Assembly (NCBI GenBank): GCA_905235445.1
Contig: CAJOLJ010000013.1
Coordinates: 1-64,000 of the forward strand
Source: an uncultured Bacteroidales bacterium
GTDB lineage: Bacteria; Bacteroidota; Bacteroidia; Bacteroidales; UBA932
Length of the DNA: 64,000 bases
Reading direction: 5' to 3'
Shown: piece by piece, positions 20,050 to 26,598 of the stretch
Numbering within the stretch: position 1 is the stretch's first letter
How the letters are laid out: each line of letters starts with the position of its first letter
Translations under genes and position numbers: made by a program
Notes under the pieces: model-generated
What the model saw: only the letters and a program-made list of their open reading frames with translations
Database searches by the model: none
What the model was told of the DNA's origin: nothing

Positions 20050-20829
20050 CTACGAGGAGGAGAGTGCTTCGAATAGTTTGTCCAGAGCCTCGTCCGGTCC
20101 GCCGCTCTCCTCCAGAAGGGTGACGAACTTACTGCCGATGATGGCGCCGGCAGCATGGGCCACTGCGGCCTCCAGAGTCTGGCGGTTGCTGATTCCGAAG
20201 CCTATCATACGGGGATGCTTCAGGTTCATCGCATCGATGCGGCGGAAGTATTCCTGCTTCCGCTCGTCAAAGCTCTTCTGGGCGCCGGTTATTGACGCTG
20301 AACTCACCATGTAGATGAACCCGTCGGTATTGTCGTCGATGAAACGGACCCTCTCTTCCTCGGTCTCGGGCGTGATGAGCATTATGACGTGGATACCGAA
20401 CTCCCCCGCTATTGGCTTCACTTCTTCCATATAGTCCTTGAAGGGCAGGTCCGGAATGATTACGCCACTTACCCCGCTGTCCTTGCAGCTACGGAAAAAG
20501 TTCCTGTAACCATACTGCATCACCACGTTCAGGTATCCCATCAGCACCAGGGGAATGGACACCTCGTCCTTGATTTCAGTGAGCTGGGCGAAAAGTTTGG
20601 AGATGGTCATCCCATTCCTGATGGCACTTGTTGCCGCACTCTGGATTACCGGACCGTCCGCCAGGGGGTCCGAGAAGGGAAAGCCAACCTCCACCATGGC
20701 GATACCTCGCCTTTCCATGGCGCGGATCACCTCGGCAGTTCCTTCCAGGCTGGGATCGCCCGCACAGAAATAGAGGGAGAGAAGTTTCCGGTCCCCCCGC
20801 TGCGCAAATAATTTGTCTATCTTGTTCAT
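20050..20829 (-). CDS. trpA: tryptophan synthase alpha chain
   Basis: MNKIDKLFAQRGDRKLLSLYFCAGDPSLEGT, MVEVGFPFSDPLADGPVIQ; start overlaps trpF stop (ATGA). Confidence 0.95.
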   Translation of the reverse strand: MNKIDKLFAQRGDRKLLSLYFCAGDPSLEGTAEVIRAMERRGIAMVEVGFPFSDPLADGPVIQSAATSAIRNGMTISKLFAQLTEIKDEVSIPLVLMGYLNVVMQYGYRNFFRSCKDSGVSGVIIPDLPFKDYMEEVKPIAGEFGIHVIMLITPETEEERVRFIDDNTDGFIYMVSSASITGAQKSFDERKQEYFRRIDAMNLKHPRMIGFGISNRQTLEAAVAHAAGAIIGSKFVTLLEESGGPDEALDKLFEALSSS

Positions 20830-21443
20830 GATCGTAGTGTTTCGATGAATGTCCCTAGGGCCTCCACGTCCTTGAGTCCGGGAGCGGTCTCGAAGCGGCT
20901 GTTGAGGTCGACACCGATGCACTGAGGGAGATCCAAGGAGCGGATGCGCATCCCGTCACCGGGCCCGATTCCCCCGCTGAGGAGAAAAGGAAGGGAGCCA
21001 TTGTAGTGCCGAAGCACGTTCCAGTCAAACTGCCGGCCGTTCCCACCCGGCAACTTCCCCTTGGTATCGAAAAGGAAGCCGTCGCAGATGTTCTCATACT
21101 CCCGGGCCTGTGCCAGGTCCCCAGGTCCTGAAATAGCCAGGCTCCTTAGGACTTGTACGGAGGGAAGCCGCTCCTTCAGTTCCGTGATTGCCTCCGGGGA
21201 CTCATGCCCGTGGAGTTGTATGATGTCAAGGCCAAAGCCTTTCACGGCGGAGAGGATATCCGGCAGGGCGGAATCGACAAAGACCCCCACCCTCCGGCAG
21301 CTACCGGGCAGATATGAGGGCACCTCCACTCCGACGTAGCGGCTCGACCCAGGCCAGAAGATGAATCCCATGAGGTCGACACCGAGGGCCTCCACGGCTC
21401 GGATGTTCTCGGGATAGCGCATCCCGCATACCTTGATAATCAT
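20826..21443 (-). CDS. trpF: phosphoribosylanthranilate isomerase
   Basis: MIIKVCGMRYPENIRAV, GFIFWPGSSRYV, LLSGGIGPGD; ATGA overlap with trpC stop. Confidence 0.94.
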   Translation of the reverse strand: MIIKVCGMRYPENIRAVEALGVDLMGFIFWPGSSRYVGVEVPSYLPGSCRRVGVFVDSALPDILSAVKGFGLDIIQLHGHESPEAITELKERLPSVQVLRSLAISGPGDLAQAREYENICDGFLFDTKGKLPGGNGRQFDWNVLRHYNGSLPFLLSGGIGPGDGMRIRSLDLPQCIGVDLNSRFETAPGLKDVEALGTFIETLRS

Positions 21444-22228
21444 AGCTTTGCGATGAATTGCCCCAGGACTGCGCCCGGGTCCGGTTCTTTCATGAAGCGC
21501 TCCCCTATCAGGAATCCCCGGAAACCGCACTGCCGAAGAGATGAGATGGTTTCAGGATGCCCAATCCCGCTCTCGCTCACTTTCACGGCGCCCTCAGGCA
21601 GTTTCCCTGCCAAGCGGAAACTGTTTTGTACGTCGGTGAGGAAGGTGCCGAGGTTCCGGTTGTTGACCCCGCACATGTCCGGTTCAAGGTCCGCATATGA
21701 GAGTTCCTTCTCGGAATGCATTTCCAGCAGGACCTCCATGCCCAGGGAATGGGCGGTACCCAGAAGAAGGCGGCACTCTTCCTTGCCAAGTTCGGAGGCT
21801 ATCAGAAGCACCGCCGAGGCTCCGCTCAGGCGCGCCATGTACAGTTGGTACTCATCCACCACGAATTCCTTGTAGAGGATGGGGAGGGTGACCCCGCTCC
21901 CCCTGGCTTTCGAGATGAAGTCAGGACTGCCCCCGAAGTACTTCCCGTCGGCGAGGATGCTCAGGGCAGCCGCCCCGTTCCTCTGGTATCCAAGCGGAAT
22001 TACCGCAGCGTCGCCATCTTCCCGGATCCAACCCTTTGAAGGGGACTTGCGCTTGAACTCAGCGATGATTCCGCTGGGGGAAGAGAGCAAGGCCTCAGCC
22101 ATCGAAGGTTGCCCCCCACCGTCCAGGAGGGGTTCGACCCGCTCCGCCAGGGTGCGAAGGGGCACCTCCCGCTTCAGGGCGGCGACTTCCTGCCGCTTGT
22201 GGGCGGTGATTTCGTCCAGGATATCCAT
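21440..22228 (-). CDS. trpC: indole-3-glycerol phosphate synthase
   Basis: MDILDEITAHKRQEVAALK, IIAEFKRKSPSKGWI, CGVNNRNLGTFLTD, VSESGIGHPE. Confidence 0.95.
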   Translation of the reverse strand: MDILDEITAHKRQEVAALKREVPLRTLAERVEPLLDGGGQPSMAEALLSSPSGIIAEFKRKSPSKGWIREDGDAAVIPLGYQRNGAAALSILADGKYFGGSPDFISKARGSGVTLPILYKEFVVDEYQLYMARLSGASAVLLIASELGKEECRLLLGTAHSLGMEVLLEMHSEKELSYADLEPDMCGVNNRNLGTFLTDVQNSFRLAGKLPEGAVKVSESGIGHPETISSLRQCGFRGFLIGERFMKEPDPGAVLGQFIAKL

Positions 22229-22230
22229 CT

Positions 22231-23226
22231 CTAGCTGTTCAGTTCCACGAATTTCCTGAAATTCGAGAGGGCCTTGCCGCTTTCCAGGCTCTCCCTTGCA
22301 ATATCCAGGGCATGCAGGATGTCCAGGCTCTGGTCCATGCACTGGATGGCGACGGCGGCATTGGCAAGAACGGTGTTCTTCTGCCCCTCCGTGGAGCGGT
22401 TCTCCAGGACAGAGTCGAAAATGGCCGCGGCCTCCTGGGGAGTCCTGCCTCCGAAGAGGTCGTAGTCTTTCGTCAAGGGCAGGTTGAAATCGGACGGGTC
22501 GAACACCTTCTCATACTTGTTGGTGCATATCTTGAAAGTCCCCGTCAGGGAGATTTCATCGTAACCGTCGGTGCTGCTAACCAGGGCATAGTCCACACCC
22601 ATCTTCTGGAACACATTGTTATAGAGGCGCATCTGCTCCAGGGTGGCGGTCCCCATCACGTTGCATTTCGGCTGGGAGGGATTCACAAGGGGGCCGAGCA
22701 GGTTGAAGAAAGTCATGAAAGGGAGGACCTTGCGGACCGGGCCGACGAACTTCATCGCCCGGGCATAGACCTGGGCATGGAGATACACCATGTGAGTTTC
22801 AGCCATGGAGCGGTTCAGGCGGTCCGCATCGAAGGTGAATTTCACCCCGTGCCGGGCCATCACGTCGCTGGCCCCGGAGGTGCTGGTGCTGGCATAGTTG
22901 CCGTGCTTGGCCACATTGTAACCCGCCCCGGCCACAACGGCGCAGGCGCACGTGGAAATGTTGAAAGTGTTCTTCATGTCTCCGCCGGTCCCGACGATAT
23001 CGACATACTTGTCAGCGTCGAGTTTCACGGAAAGTCCGGTCTCGAGGATGCCGTCACGGAAGCCCAGGAGTTCATCGACGGTGATGCCGCGCAGTTGCAG
23101 CATGCTCATAAGGGCGGCCAACTGCTCGTTGGGATACTTTTCCTGGGTGATGTTGATAAGGATGTCGCGGGTCTCCTCGCGTGACAGATACTCGTGATTG
23201 AGAATCTCTTCTAGATACTTTTTCAT
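22231..23226 (-). CDS. trpD: anthranilate phosphoribosyltransferase
   Basis: 331 aa; VDIVGTGGDMKNTFNISTCACAVVAGAGYNVAKHGNYASTSTSGASD. Confidence 0.96.
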   Translation of the reverse strand: MKKYLEEILNHEYLSREETRDILINITQEKYPNEQLAALMSMLQLRGITVDELLGFRDGILETGLSVKLDADKYVDIVGTGGDMKNTFNISTCACAVVAGAGYNVAKHGNYASTSTSGASDVMARHGVKFTFDADRLNRSMAETHMVYLHAQVYARAMKFVGPVRKVLPFMTFFNLLGPLVNPSQPKCNVMGTATLEQMRLYNNVFQKMGVDYALVSSTDGYDEISLTGTFKICTNKYEKVFDPSDFNLPLTKDYDLFGGRTPQEAAAIFDSVLENRSTEGQKNTVLANAAVAIQCMDQSLDILHALDIARESLESGKALSNFRKFVELNS

Positions 23227-23262
23227 AGTTTACATTATTTAATTTCAATTATTTCCGTTATT

Positions 23263-23823
23263 TCAGCTGATCCAATTCCCGAGGATGGCAGCCCCCTGGG
23301 GCGTCAGGACGCTCTCGGGATGGAACTGGATGCCGTGGATGTCGAACTTGCGGTGTCGTAGGGCCATGATCTGCCCCTCATCGCTTACGGCGGTTACCTC
23401 CAGGGTGTCGGGGAAGCCTTCACGGCTGACCACCCAACTGTGGTAGCGGCCCATCACTATCCGCTGGGGCAATCCCCGGAAAATGGGGTCCACCCCGAAC
23501 TGCGTGCCCTCAGTGGCCACCCCGTGAAAAACGTCGCTGAGGTTCTCCAGGCGGCCACCGAACACTTCGGCAATGGCCTGATGGCCAAGGCAGACGCCAA
23601 GAATGGGCTTTCTCCCTGCATAGGTTCGGATGACGTCTATCAGAAGTCCGGCCTCCGAGGGAATGCCGGGACCTGGCGACAGGATGATCCTGTCGAAAGA
23701 CTCAAGTTCCTCCAGCGCGAAGCGGTCGTTTCGCAGGACGGTGACCTCCGCACCCAAAGACTTCACCAGATGAGAGAGGTTGTAGGTGAAGCTGTCATAA
23801 TTGTCAATGATAACGATATTCAT
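23263..23823 (-). CDS. trpG: anthranilate synthase component II (glutamine amidotransferase)
   Basis: 186 aa; NYDSFTYNLSHLVKSLGAEV, LSPGPGIP, PILGVCLGHQAIAEVFGG, HGIQFHPES. Confidence 0.96.
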   Translation of the reverse strand: MNIVIIDNYDSFTYNLSHLVKSLGAEVTVLRNDRFALEELESFDRIILSPGPGIPSEAGLLIDVIRTYAGRKPILGVCLGHQAIAEVFGGRLENLSDVFHGVATEGTQFGVDPIFRGLPQRIVMGRYHSWVVSREGFPDTLEVTAVSDEGQIMALRHRKFDIHGIQFHPESVLTPQGAAILGNWIS

Positions 23824-23827
23824 GGTC

Positions 23828-25228
23828 TTACATTTGTTCGGCCATCAGGATGGCACGGCGCAGGGCGTTCAACTTGTTATTGACTTCCTGGAGTTCGTAT
23901 TCTTCATTGCTGCGGGCCACGATGCCCCCTCCGGCCTGGAACCACAGTTCGTTGTTCCGGCTCACGAAAGTGCGGATGGTAATGGCCTGGTTGAGACTGC
24001 CGTCGATGCCGATGTAGCCGATGCAGCCGCCGTATGCGCCACGGTTGTGGGGCTCGTACTCACTGATGAGCTGCATCGCACGCACCTTGGGAGCCCCGCT
24101 GAGGGTGCCGGCGGGGAAGGTGTCCATGAAGGTCTTGACGGGATCCGCATCAGCGTCAAGCTCTCCGCTCACACGGGAAACGAGGTGGATCACATGGCTA
24201 TAGTACTGGAGATCCTTGTAGAAATCCACCCTTACGTCGTGACAATTGCGGCTGAGGTCGTTGCGGGCCAGGTCGACGAGCATCACGTGCTCGGCATTCT
24301 CCTTGGGGTCACTGCGCAGGAACTCTGCTCCACGGGCATCCTCCTCCCTGTTTCCGGTGCGTTTGGTCGTGCCGGCGATGGGGTCGATGTAGGCCCGGCC
24401 GCCCTCAATGCGGCAGTGCGTCTCCGGGGAAGAGCCGAAGATGCGGAAGCCCCCGAAGTCGAAATAGAACAGGTACGGGCTGGGATTGATGCTACGCAGG
24501 GCCCTGTATAGTTTGAAGTCATCCCCTTCGTATTTCTGGATGAAGCGACGCGACAGGACGACCTGGAAGACATCCCCGCGAAGACAGTGCGCGATTCCCC
24601 TTCGGATGTTGGCCTTGTGCCCTTCGTCCGTGAGGGTGGAGGAGGTTTCCCCGACGGGATGGAAACCGTAGGGGTTGACATTGGTGCGGTTCATCTCCTG
24701 CTCAATCCTCGCAAGAGAGCTCCGCTCACCCTCCTCCAGCAGTTCCACAAGGACCATCGTGTTGTTGAAATGGTCGAACATGATGATGTACTTGTACAGG
24801 ATGTACAGGACATCGGGCGCATCGTTGCGCTCCTGGGTCTCGTCCTTGACCGGGATATTCTCGAGATAACGGACAGCATTGAAGGTCATGTAGCCGTACA
24901 GGCCGCACATGCTTCGGCATTCTCCCCCGACTTCGAAACTGTGGATGAACTCGTTGACGGCCCTATCCAGGGTATAGTCCGCCGACAGAGGGCGCCGCAC
25001 CCTCCTTCCGTCGGGATAGCTGTGCACCGCAACCCCATGTTCCACGGCTACGCTTCCGATGGGAGCGATGCCTATGAAGGAGCGGGAATTCTCTCCCCCG
25101 TGGTAGTCGCTTGACTCCATCAGGGCGGACTGCGGATAAAGGTCACGGAGTTTCATGTACACCGAAACCGGGGTGTGAAGGTCCGCCAGCCGCCTGCGGA
25201 CGGCGGTAGTGTATTTAGAAGTCGCCAT
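23828..25228 (-). CDS. trpE: anthranilate synthase component I
   Basis: 466 aa; RIFGSSPETHCRIEGGRAYIDPIAGTTKRTGN, TLSGAPKVRAMQLISEYEP; 14-nt overlap with trpB. Confidence 0.96.
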   Translation of the reverse strand: MATSKYTTAVRRRLADLHTPVSVYMKLRDLYPQSALMESSDYHGGENSRSFIGIAPIGSVAVEHGVAVHSYPDGRRVRRPLSADYTLDRAVNEFIHSFEVGGECRSMCGLYGYMTFNAVRYLENIPVKDETQERNDAPDVLYILYKYIIMFDHFNNTMVLVELLEEGERSSLARIEQEMNRTNVNPYGFHPVGETSSTLTDEGHKANIRRGIAHCLRGDVFQVVLSRRFIQKYEGDDFKLYRALRSINPSPYLFYFDFGGFRIFGSSPETHCRIEGGRAYIDPIAGTTKRTGNREEDARGAEFLRSDPKENAEHVMLVDLARNDLSRNCHDVRVDFYKDLQYYSHVIHLVSRVSGELDADADPVKTFMDTFPAGTLSGAPKVRAMQLISEYEPHNRGAYGGCIGYIGIDGSLNQAITIRTFVSRNNELWFQAGGGIVARSNEEYELQEVNNKLNALRRAILMAEQM

Positions 25229-26417
25229 ATTCCTTCGCCATTTCCTTGTTTTTCAGATAGGTCTCGACATCCTTGTCGCCACGCCCGCTGACTGTGAGGA
25301 CTACGATGTCGTCGGGAAGAAGTGTCATCTTGCCCAGCGCCGCAACGGCATGGGCGCTTTCGATGGCAGGGATGATGCCTTCGAGCCGGGTCATTTCATA
25401 TCCTGCATGGATGGCCTCGTCATCGTTTATGGCGAGGACCTGGGTCCTCCCGTGTTTAGCCATGTTGCTGTGCATCGGTCCCACCCCTGGATAGTCCAGG
25501 CCGGCAGAGATGGAGAATGCTTCCTCGATCTGGCCGTCGGGAGTCTGCATGACAAGCATTTTGGAGCCGTGCAGGATGCCGGTCCGGCCACGGTGGATGG
25601 TCGCAGCGGTATAGCCGGAATCGACGCCATGGCCGCCGGCTTCCGCCAGGACGATCCGGACTCTCTCATCGTCCATGTAATGATAGACGGTACCGGCCGC
25701 ATTGCTTCCCCCGCCGATGCAGGCGACCAGGTAGTCGGGATAGTCCCTCCCGACCTGATCCTGCAGCTGGACTTTGATCTCCTCCGAAATGACGCTCTGT
25801 AGCCTGGCCACGAGGTCCGGATAAGGGTGAGGCCCCATGGTGGAGCCGACCAGGTAATACGTATCGGAAGGGTGGCAGCACCAATCCCGGATGGCGGCGG
25901 AGCAGGCGTCACTCAGGGTCATGTTGCCGGTGGTGACCGGATTTACCTTCGCACCCAGCATACGCATCCGCTCGACGTTGGTATGCTGACGCTCTACATC
26001 GGTCTTGCCCATGAAAATCTCACACTCCATGCCCATCAGGGCGCAGACAGTGGCGGTCGCAACCCCGTGCTGGCCGGCACCGGTCTCCGCAATGACCCTG
26101 GTCTTTCCCATCTCCCTTGCCAGGAGGATCTGGCCTATGGCATTGTTGATCTTATGGGCGCCGGTATGGTTGCAGTCCTCGCGTTTAAGGTAAAGACGGC
26201 AGCCATACTTGCGGCTCATGCGCTGGGCATAGTACAGGGGAGAGGGCCTTCCGGCATAGTCCCTCAGCAAGCGACGGTATTCCTGCTGGAAAGCGGCGCT
26301 TTCGATGACTGGGAGGTAGGCCTGACGCAACTCCTCGACGCATTTGTAAAGGATCTCGGGGATGTAGGCTCCGCCAAACTCCCCATAGAATCCGTTTTCG
26401 TCCACTTGGTAACTCAT
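25215..26417 (-). CDS. trpB: tryptophan synthase beta chain
   Basis: 400 aa; KREDCNHTGAHKINNAIGQILLAREMGKTRVIAETGAGQHGVATAT; GGGSNAAG. Confidence 0.97.
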   Translation of the reverse strand: MSYQVDENGFYGEFGGAYIPEILYKCVEELRQAYLPVIESAAFQQEYRRLLRDYAGRPSPLYYAQRMSRKYGCRLYLKREDCNHTGAHKINNAIGQILLAREMGKTRVIAETGAGQHGVATATVCALMGMECEIFMGKTDVERQHTNVERMRMLGAKVNPVTTGNMTLSDACSAAIRDWCCHPSDTYYLVGSTMGPHPYPDLVARLQSVISEEIKVQLQDQVGRDYPDYLVACIGGGSNAAGTVYHYMDDERVRIVLAEAGGHGVDSGYTAATIHRGRTGILHGSKMLVMQTPDGQIEEAFSISAGLDYPGVGPMHSNMAKHGRTQVLAINDDEAIHAGYEMTRLEGIIPAIESAHAVAALGKMTLLPDDIVVLTVSGRGDKDVETYLKNKEMAKEYGDF

Positions 26418-26443: not shown

Positions 26444-26474
26444 AAAAAATGGCCCGTCGTGATTACGACAGGCC
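26444..26474 (-). terminator. intrinsic terminator in the trp leader (attenuator)
   Basis: Minus strand GGCCTGTCGT-AATC-ACGACGGGCC-ATTTTTT: 10-bp stem with one G:U, then a T tract, 27 nt before the trpB ATG. Confidence 0.85.
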
Positions 26475-26512
26475 TTATCTTGTAAGTTGATTGTTTTACA
26501 CGGCTGCGCTTC

Positions 26513-26566
26513 TCACGAATTTTCAATCCTTGAGCAACGCCACCATCCTGCAAAACGAGTCATCAT
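26513..26566 (-). CDS. putative trp leader peptide MMTRFAGWWRCSRIENS
   Basis: 17-codon ORF ATGATGACTCGTTTTGCAGGATGGTGGCGTTGCTCAAGGATTGAAAATTCGTGA with tandem TGG TGG (26540-26545), 18 nt after the predicted TSS. Confidence 0.82.
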   Translation of the reverse strand: MMTRFAGWWRCSRIENS

Positions 26567-26590
26567 TGTATTTCAATTCTTAGTCCGGGG

Positions 26591-26598
26591 CAAAGGTA
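26591..26598 (-). promoter_or_regulatory. -7 box of the trp operon promoter
   Basis: Minus strand TACCTTTG (TAnnTTTG); no clear -33 element. Confidence 0.5.

Follow-up and report, generated by a model that had tools for sequence, protein, structure and literature searches.

A putative ribosome-mediated tryptophan attenuator upstream of trpBEGDCFA in an uncultured Bacteroidales bacterium, and related leaders before trpB2

Our analyses of the window, the whole stretch of 64,000 nucleotides of DNA from an uncultured Bacteroidales bacterium that was studied here, lead us to conclude with high confidence, on the strength of sequence comparison, that the leader lying upstream of the trpBEGDCFA operon on the minus strand is a ribosome-mediated tryptophan attenuator controlling this operon. 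An earlier note on this DNA had proposed such an attenuator; the observation is real, the reading given to it is in general terms very probably correct, and the element belongs to a kind that is already known. The present work adds two things to the known kind, viz. a better-supported antiterminator and an extension of the device to the gene trpB2. Information regarding the parts of the leader, their conservation in related genomes and the pairing that would prevent termination is presented below.

Organization of the trpB leader

The features of the leader and of the operon downstream of it are as follows.

26591 to 26598, minus strand: promoter box of the -7 type (TAnnTTTG), TACCTTTG, read from the sequence
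26513 to 26566, minus strand: leader peptide ORF of 17 codons, MMTRFAGWWRCSRIENS, read from the sequence
26493 to 26556, minus strand: pause hairpin 1:2, spanning the Trp codons together with the segment around the stop codon, from the minimum free energy (MFE) fold
26545 to 26540, minus strand: tandem Trp codons TGGTGG of the leader ORF, read from the sequence
26513 to 26518, minus strand: region 2, the putative outer antiterminator strand UCGUGA, which includes the stop codon; complementary to 26462 to 26457, with permutation and loop-swap tests
26515 to 26513, minus strand: stop codon TGA of the leader ORF, read from the sequence
26502 to 26509, minus strand: GCGCAGCC, predicted in the window to be able to pair with the terminator left arm, forming an inner helix that would prolong the outer one
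26451 to 26474, minus strand: intrinsic terminator hairpin 3:4 of 10 bp, GGCCTGTCGT-AATC-ACGACGGGCC, with the loop AATC, from sequence and fold
26457 to 26462, minus strand: UCACGA, loop of the terminator together with the upper part of its right arm, candidate partner of region 2, from the fold and pairing tests
26444 to 26449, minus strand: U6 tract (T6) of the terminator, with one A between hairpin and tract, read from the sequence
20050 to 26417, minus strand: trpBEGDCFA operon downstream of the leader, from NCBIfam matches to all seven genes
25215 to 26417, minus strand: trpB, the first gene of the operon, with its ATG at 26417, from NCBIfam

The succession of promoter box, ORF with tandem Trp codons, terminator with its T6 tract and trpB that the earlier note had described is correct to the base, and the gene order trpB-E-G-D-C-F-A is borne out by the NCBIfam matches. 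The promoter assignment stood in part. The proposed box TACCTTTG is present, and a TANNTTTG box is common among homologous leaders, 109 of 153 having one no more than 60 nt before the leader ATG, against 4.3% of shuffles; however, no good -33 element is seen at the usual spacing upstream of the box in the window. The transcript probably starts just downstream of TACCTTTG.

The MFE fold of the leader consists of the pause hairpin and the terminator, with a fold z-score of -3.6. When the 181-nt leader was subjected to 5,000 dinucleotide shuffles, a short ORF with two consecutive Trp codons (WW) arose in 14 and a terminator stem of 8 bp or more in 10 of the shuffled sequences, and the two occurred together in the proper order in none of the 5,000.

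Conservation in related genomes

Loci from related genomes were fetched by means of TrpB. In most of the relatives whose operon starts with trpB, a leader with two or three consecutive Trp codons (WW or WWW) and a terminator are found just upstream of this gene, in genomes drawn from across the order, and the four relatives with TrpB 91–94% identical (L031–L033 and L039) have a WWW leader. A lack of conserved Trp codons and terminator among relatives, which the earlier note had held to speak against its reading, is thus not what is seen: both recur at the orthologous place. In an alignment of 40 relatives, the terminator carries compensatory changes in 10 of its 12 pairs, and 97.5% of its cells are paired in comparison to 34–59% in slid controls. 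The upper part of the pause stem is likewise conserved, with compensatory changes at alignment columns 32:51, 33:50 and 37:46. The leader therefore has the general make-up of a trp attenuator, viz. an ORF with tandem Trp codons ahead of Trp genes and a terminator with compensatory changes ahead of the first of them, and the retention of the Trp codons, the pause hairpin and the terminator in dozens of relatives strongly supports ribosome-mediated attenuation by tryptophan. The covariation that had been called for is present in the 1:2 pause stem and the 3:4 terminator stem, whereas the 2:3 pairing with the left arm is at the level of shuffled sequences (see below).

A pattern scan of all of the fetched loci yielded 185 instances of a WW leader followed by a terminator, with a trp gene coming next in 181 of them (trpB, 85; trpD, 43; trpE, 37; trpB2, 15; trpG, 1). 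The scan required TGGTGG and therefore cannot itself prove the conservation of the Trp codons; the position before trp genes and the pairing tests lie outside this criterion and hence provide independent evidence. Redundancy was removed to give a set of 155 leaders before trpB, trpE, trpD and trpB2, of which 122 have WWW, and the residues flanking the Trp codons vary.

In many Prevotella-type loci, including those of the Prevotellaceae L035, L047, L051–L052, L061 and L063, the leader and terminator precede trpD rather than trpB; hence the position of the attenuator tracks the first gene of the operon. Six other loci (L183, L197, L209, L214, L218 and L220) contain two WW-leader and terminator units about 130–160 nt apart, arranged in series before a single trpE or trpB gene, as putative tandem Trp attenuators.

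Relationship to known RNA families

Among leader families, Rfam RF01692 scores highest on the window, matching positions 26586-26467 with 22.4 bits, far below its cut-off of 49 bits. This family, Bacteroid-trp, bears the name "Bacteroidete tryptophan peptide leader RNA" and was listed among the cis-regulatory motifs of Bacteroidetes by Weinberg et al. (2010; PMC2864571). Like the element described here, this motif is found before Trp genes in Bacteroidota and presents, in order, an ORF with Trp codons, a pause stem and the left arm of a terminator. As the same kind of element has already been described, the view that it is under-described in this phylum does not hold. The motif paper (Weinberg et al., 2010) was the only relevant work on tryptophan attenuation in Bacteroidota found in the open-access literature, an absence that carries little weight. 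The RF01692 model stops within the left arm of the terminator, whereas the supported antiterminator partner, consisting of the loop and right arm, lies outside of it.

A search of the window's own genome with RF01692 found nothing. However, orthologous trpB leaders of relatives reach the cut-off (L009, 50.2 bits; L007, 49.7 bits; L005, 49.2 bits; L107, 55.4 bits). We also constructed a covariance model (R1) on the 40-sequence alignment, extended to the full terminator, and a second model (R2) that excluded the window as well as the four relatives closest to it (those with 91–94% identical TrpB). Model R2, the training set of which includes some RF01692-scoring leaders of relatives, recovers the window with 65.6 bits (E = 6e-15). 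Because the orthologous trpB leaders pass the cut-off and R2 recovers the window, the leader is treated here as a diverged homologue of the RF01692 kind that fails the strict cut-off. At E ≤ 0.01, R1 matches 239 of the 395 genomes of the order, weak matches being counted as scored; RF01692 at E ≤ 0.1 matches 38 of 199 genomes, both the threshold and the sample being other than those of R1. The leader also drew a match to 5.8S rRNA (E 0.005; 19.1 bits, the cut-off being 42); this match and those to Thr_leader were rejected as chance or terminator-driven.

These comparisons also bear on other explanations of the leader. Tandem codons are a hallmark of codon-starvation sensing in trp attenuation. 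A peptide that senses free tryptophan in the exit tunnel by TnaC-like stalling, instead of charged Trp-tRNA, would superficially fit a short Trp-containing leader before genes of Trp metabolism; however, the two or three consecutive UGG codons (three in most of the non-redundant leaders), the variability of the flanking residues and the fact that the controlled genes make tryptophan and do not degrade it make this very unlikely. It is highly improbable that the ORF plays no part and that the hairpin serves as a constitutive terminator with some leakage, or as an element of mRNA stability: lone intrinsic terminators are common and the support for regulation here is sequence comparison, but the WW codons, their frame, the spacing and the match between region 2 and the loop recur in 155 non-redundant leaders before Trp genes. 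Tryptophan-binding riboswitches, T-boxes and TRAP-type elements do control trp genes elsewhere, yet no such family matches the leader, a T-box is absent up to E 10, Bacteroid-trp is the best leader family, and no repeated (G/U)AG tract was noticed on reading the leader sequence, so that the probability of an element of this type is next to nothing.

Identification of the antiterminator

The trp leader of Escherichia coli comprises a leader peptide with tandem Trp residues, a pause hairpin, a terminator and an alternative antiterminator, and in it the partner of region 2 is the left arm of the terminator. The element described here resembles this attenuator (RF00513, Trp_leader) in all of these components, while RF00513 itself has no match in the window. 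It is unlike that of E. coli in that the conserved pairing involves the loop and upper right arm of the terminator, and in that trpB comes first and the gene order differs.

In the window, UCGUGA of region 2 (26518-26513) is complementary to UCACGA (26462-26457). Across 154 non-redundant leaders, the pairing of region 2 with the loop and upper right arm has a mean energy of -12.15 kcal/mol in comparison to -6.93 for shuffled sequences, and to -10.19 (sd 0.18) when the partners are permuted among loci, a comparison in which, as in the other tests below, shared ancestry partly remains. This locus specificity is seen in the trpB, trpE and trpB2 groups, where 0, 2 and 0 of 3,000 permutations, respectively, were as good; in the trpD-first Prevotella group, the match is not locus-specific (1,760 of 3,000 permutations), because its sequences are near-uniform. 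The cleanest evidence is provided by exchanging the loops alone, at equal length and with the arms kept, since the 3:4 stem leaves the loop bases unconstrained: among 77 distinct loops, a leader's own loop gives -10.40 and swapped loops -8.92, and none of 1,000 permutations was as low. In the 40-sequence alignment, this helix is paired in 87.2% of cells against 24.7–49.6% in slid controls, and its covariation is above that of all shuffles, with two-sided changes on two pairs only. The outer helix of the window is only 6 bp long, and the loop and right arm alone give -7.9 kcal/mol.

The earlier note had placed the antiterminator in a pairing of GCAGCC, just after the leader stop, with GG(C)CTGT of the left arm. 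This pairing does form in the window, as the inner part of the alternative hairpin, and some relatives have purely left-arm pairing of the textbook 2:3 kind: a perfectly complementary strand is seen in the trpB leader of L014 (UCGAUGGC:GCCAUCGA) and in the trpB2 leader of L122 (UCGGACAGC:GCUGUCCGA), although most relatives differ. Family-wide support is nevertheless lacking, since over the 154 leaders the downstream segment matches the left arm only at shuffle level (-6.12 vs. -5.82; p = 0.35), and left-arm pairing in general is not locus-specific (own, -7.54; permuted, -7.60). That the same attenuator relies solely on left-arm pairing is hence unlikely. An alternative pairing that is mutually exclusive with the terminator is supported for the loop and upper right arm, and not for the left arm.

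With moderate confidence, we propose that in the trp attenuators of Bacteroidota the stop-codon segment pairs with the loop and upper right arm of the terminator, the left arm not being the main target; that this pairing acts as a kinetic trap masked by the terminating ribosome; and that the same device on the stand-alone trpB2 of Trp auxotrophs serves Trp-regulated indole salvage.

Proposed mechanism

We infer the dependence on tryptophan, the stalling of the ribosome, the kinetics and the actual readthrough from the arrangement of these parts. With an ample supply of charged Trp-tRNA, the ribosome would pass the two UGG codons and arrive at the UGA stop, where it would mask region 2; hairpin 3:4 would form, and transcription would not continue into trpB. 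Under a shortage of Trp-tRNA, the ribosome would stall on the UGG codons and melt the pause hairpin 1:2, and region 2 would be left free. UCGUGA of region 2, which contains the stop codon, could then capture the loop of the terminator and the start of its right arm (UCACGA) as they emerge, and in the window GCGCAGCC would extend this pairing onto the left arm; the terminator would form too late to prevent transcription of the operon.

The geometry of the leaders is consistent with these steps. Counted from the first Trp codon, the outer helix starts at a median distance of 28 nt (5–95%: 23–33), just past the footprint of a stalled ribosome, and the stop codon is placed where a terminating ribosome would cover the region 2 strand in 93% of the leaders; in the window, the distances from the first Trp codon are 27 nt to the helix and 30 nt to the stop. 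In a nested-fold series with the footprint of the stalled ribosome removed, the antiterminator is predicted for the window as long as the exposed part of the right arm measures only 4–8 nt, and beyond about 8 nt the terminator is more stable. As full-length thermodynamics favour the terminator, such a switch must be kinetic.

A second leader before trpB2

The window's own genome contains a second WW leader with a terminator (L121:1601-1730, G000:C2 about 129601-129730), which precedes a stand-alone trpB2 gene (TrpB-like, NF009057; L121:1783-3150) and encodes the peptide MTRTSAYFFWWRTYKYTL. It is matched at G000:C2:129609-129726 by both R1 (E 1.4e-6) and R2 (E 1e-7), the training sets of which contain no trpB2 leaders. 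Among 20 members of the genus, 14 have no match to trpA (PF00290) and trpC (PF00218), in assemblies that are 70–97% complete. An R1 leader, in some cases a weak one (E up to 0.02), lies directly upstream of trpB2 in 13 of these 14, and in the remaining one (L027) a WW leader and terminator before trpB2 are identified by pattern. TrpB2 is known to turn external indole into tryptophan in Thermococcus kodakarensis (as cited in PMC11085991), and the presence of the attenuator before trpB2 in the genus mates without trpA and trpC suggests a Trp-regulated salvage of indole. We found no report on the tryptophan attenuation of trpB2 in the open-access literature.

Significance

The sequence evidence indicates that a textbook mechanism would run the trp operon of this organism. 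The current Rfam model misses diverged copies of the element, identifying none in the window's own genome as compared with two leaders by the full-terminator model R1, and the comparative data lead to a specific and testable antiterminator. A trpB2 gene under putative tryptophan attenuation in species without the rest of the pathway would, in addition, bear on the indole-derived tryptophan of gut and rumen Bacteroidales.
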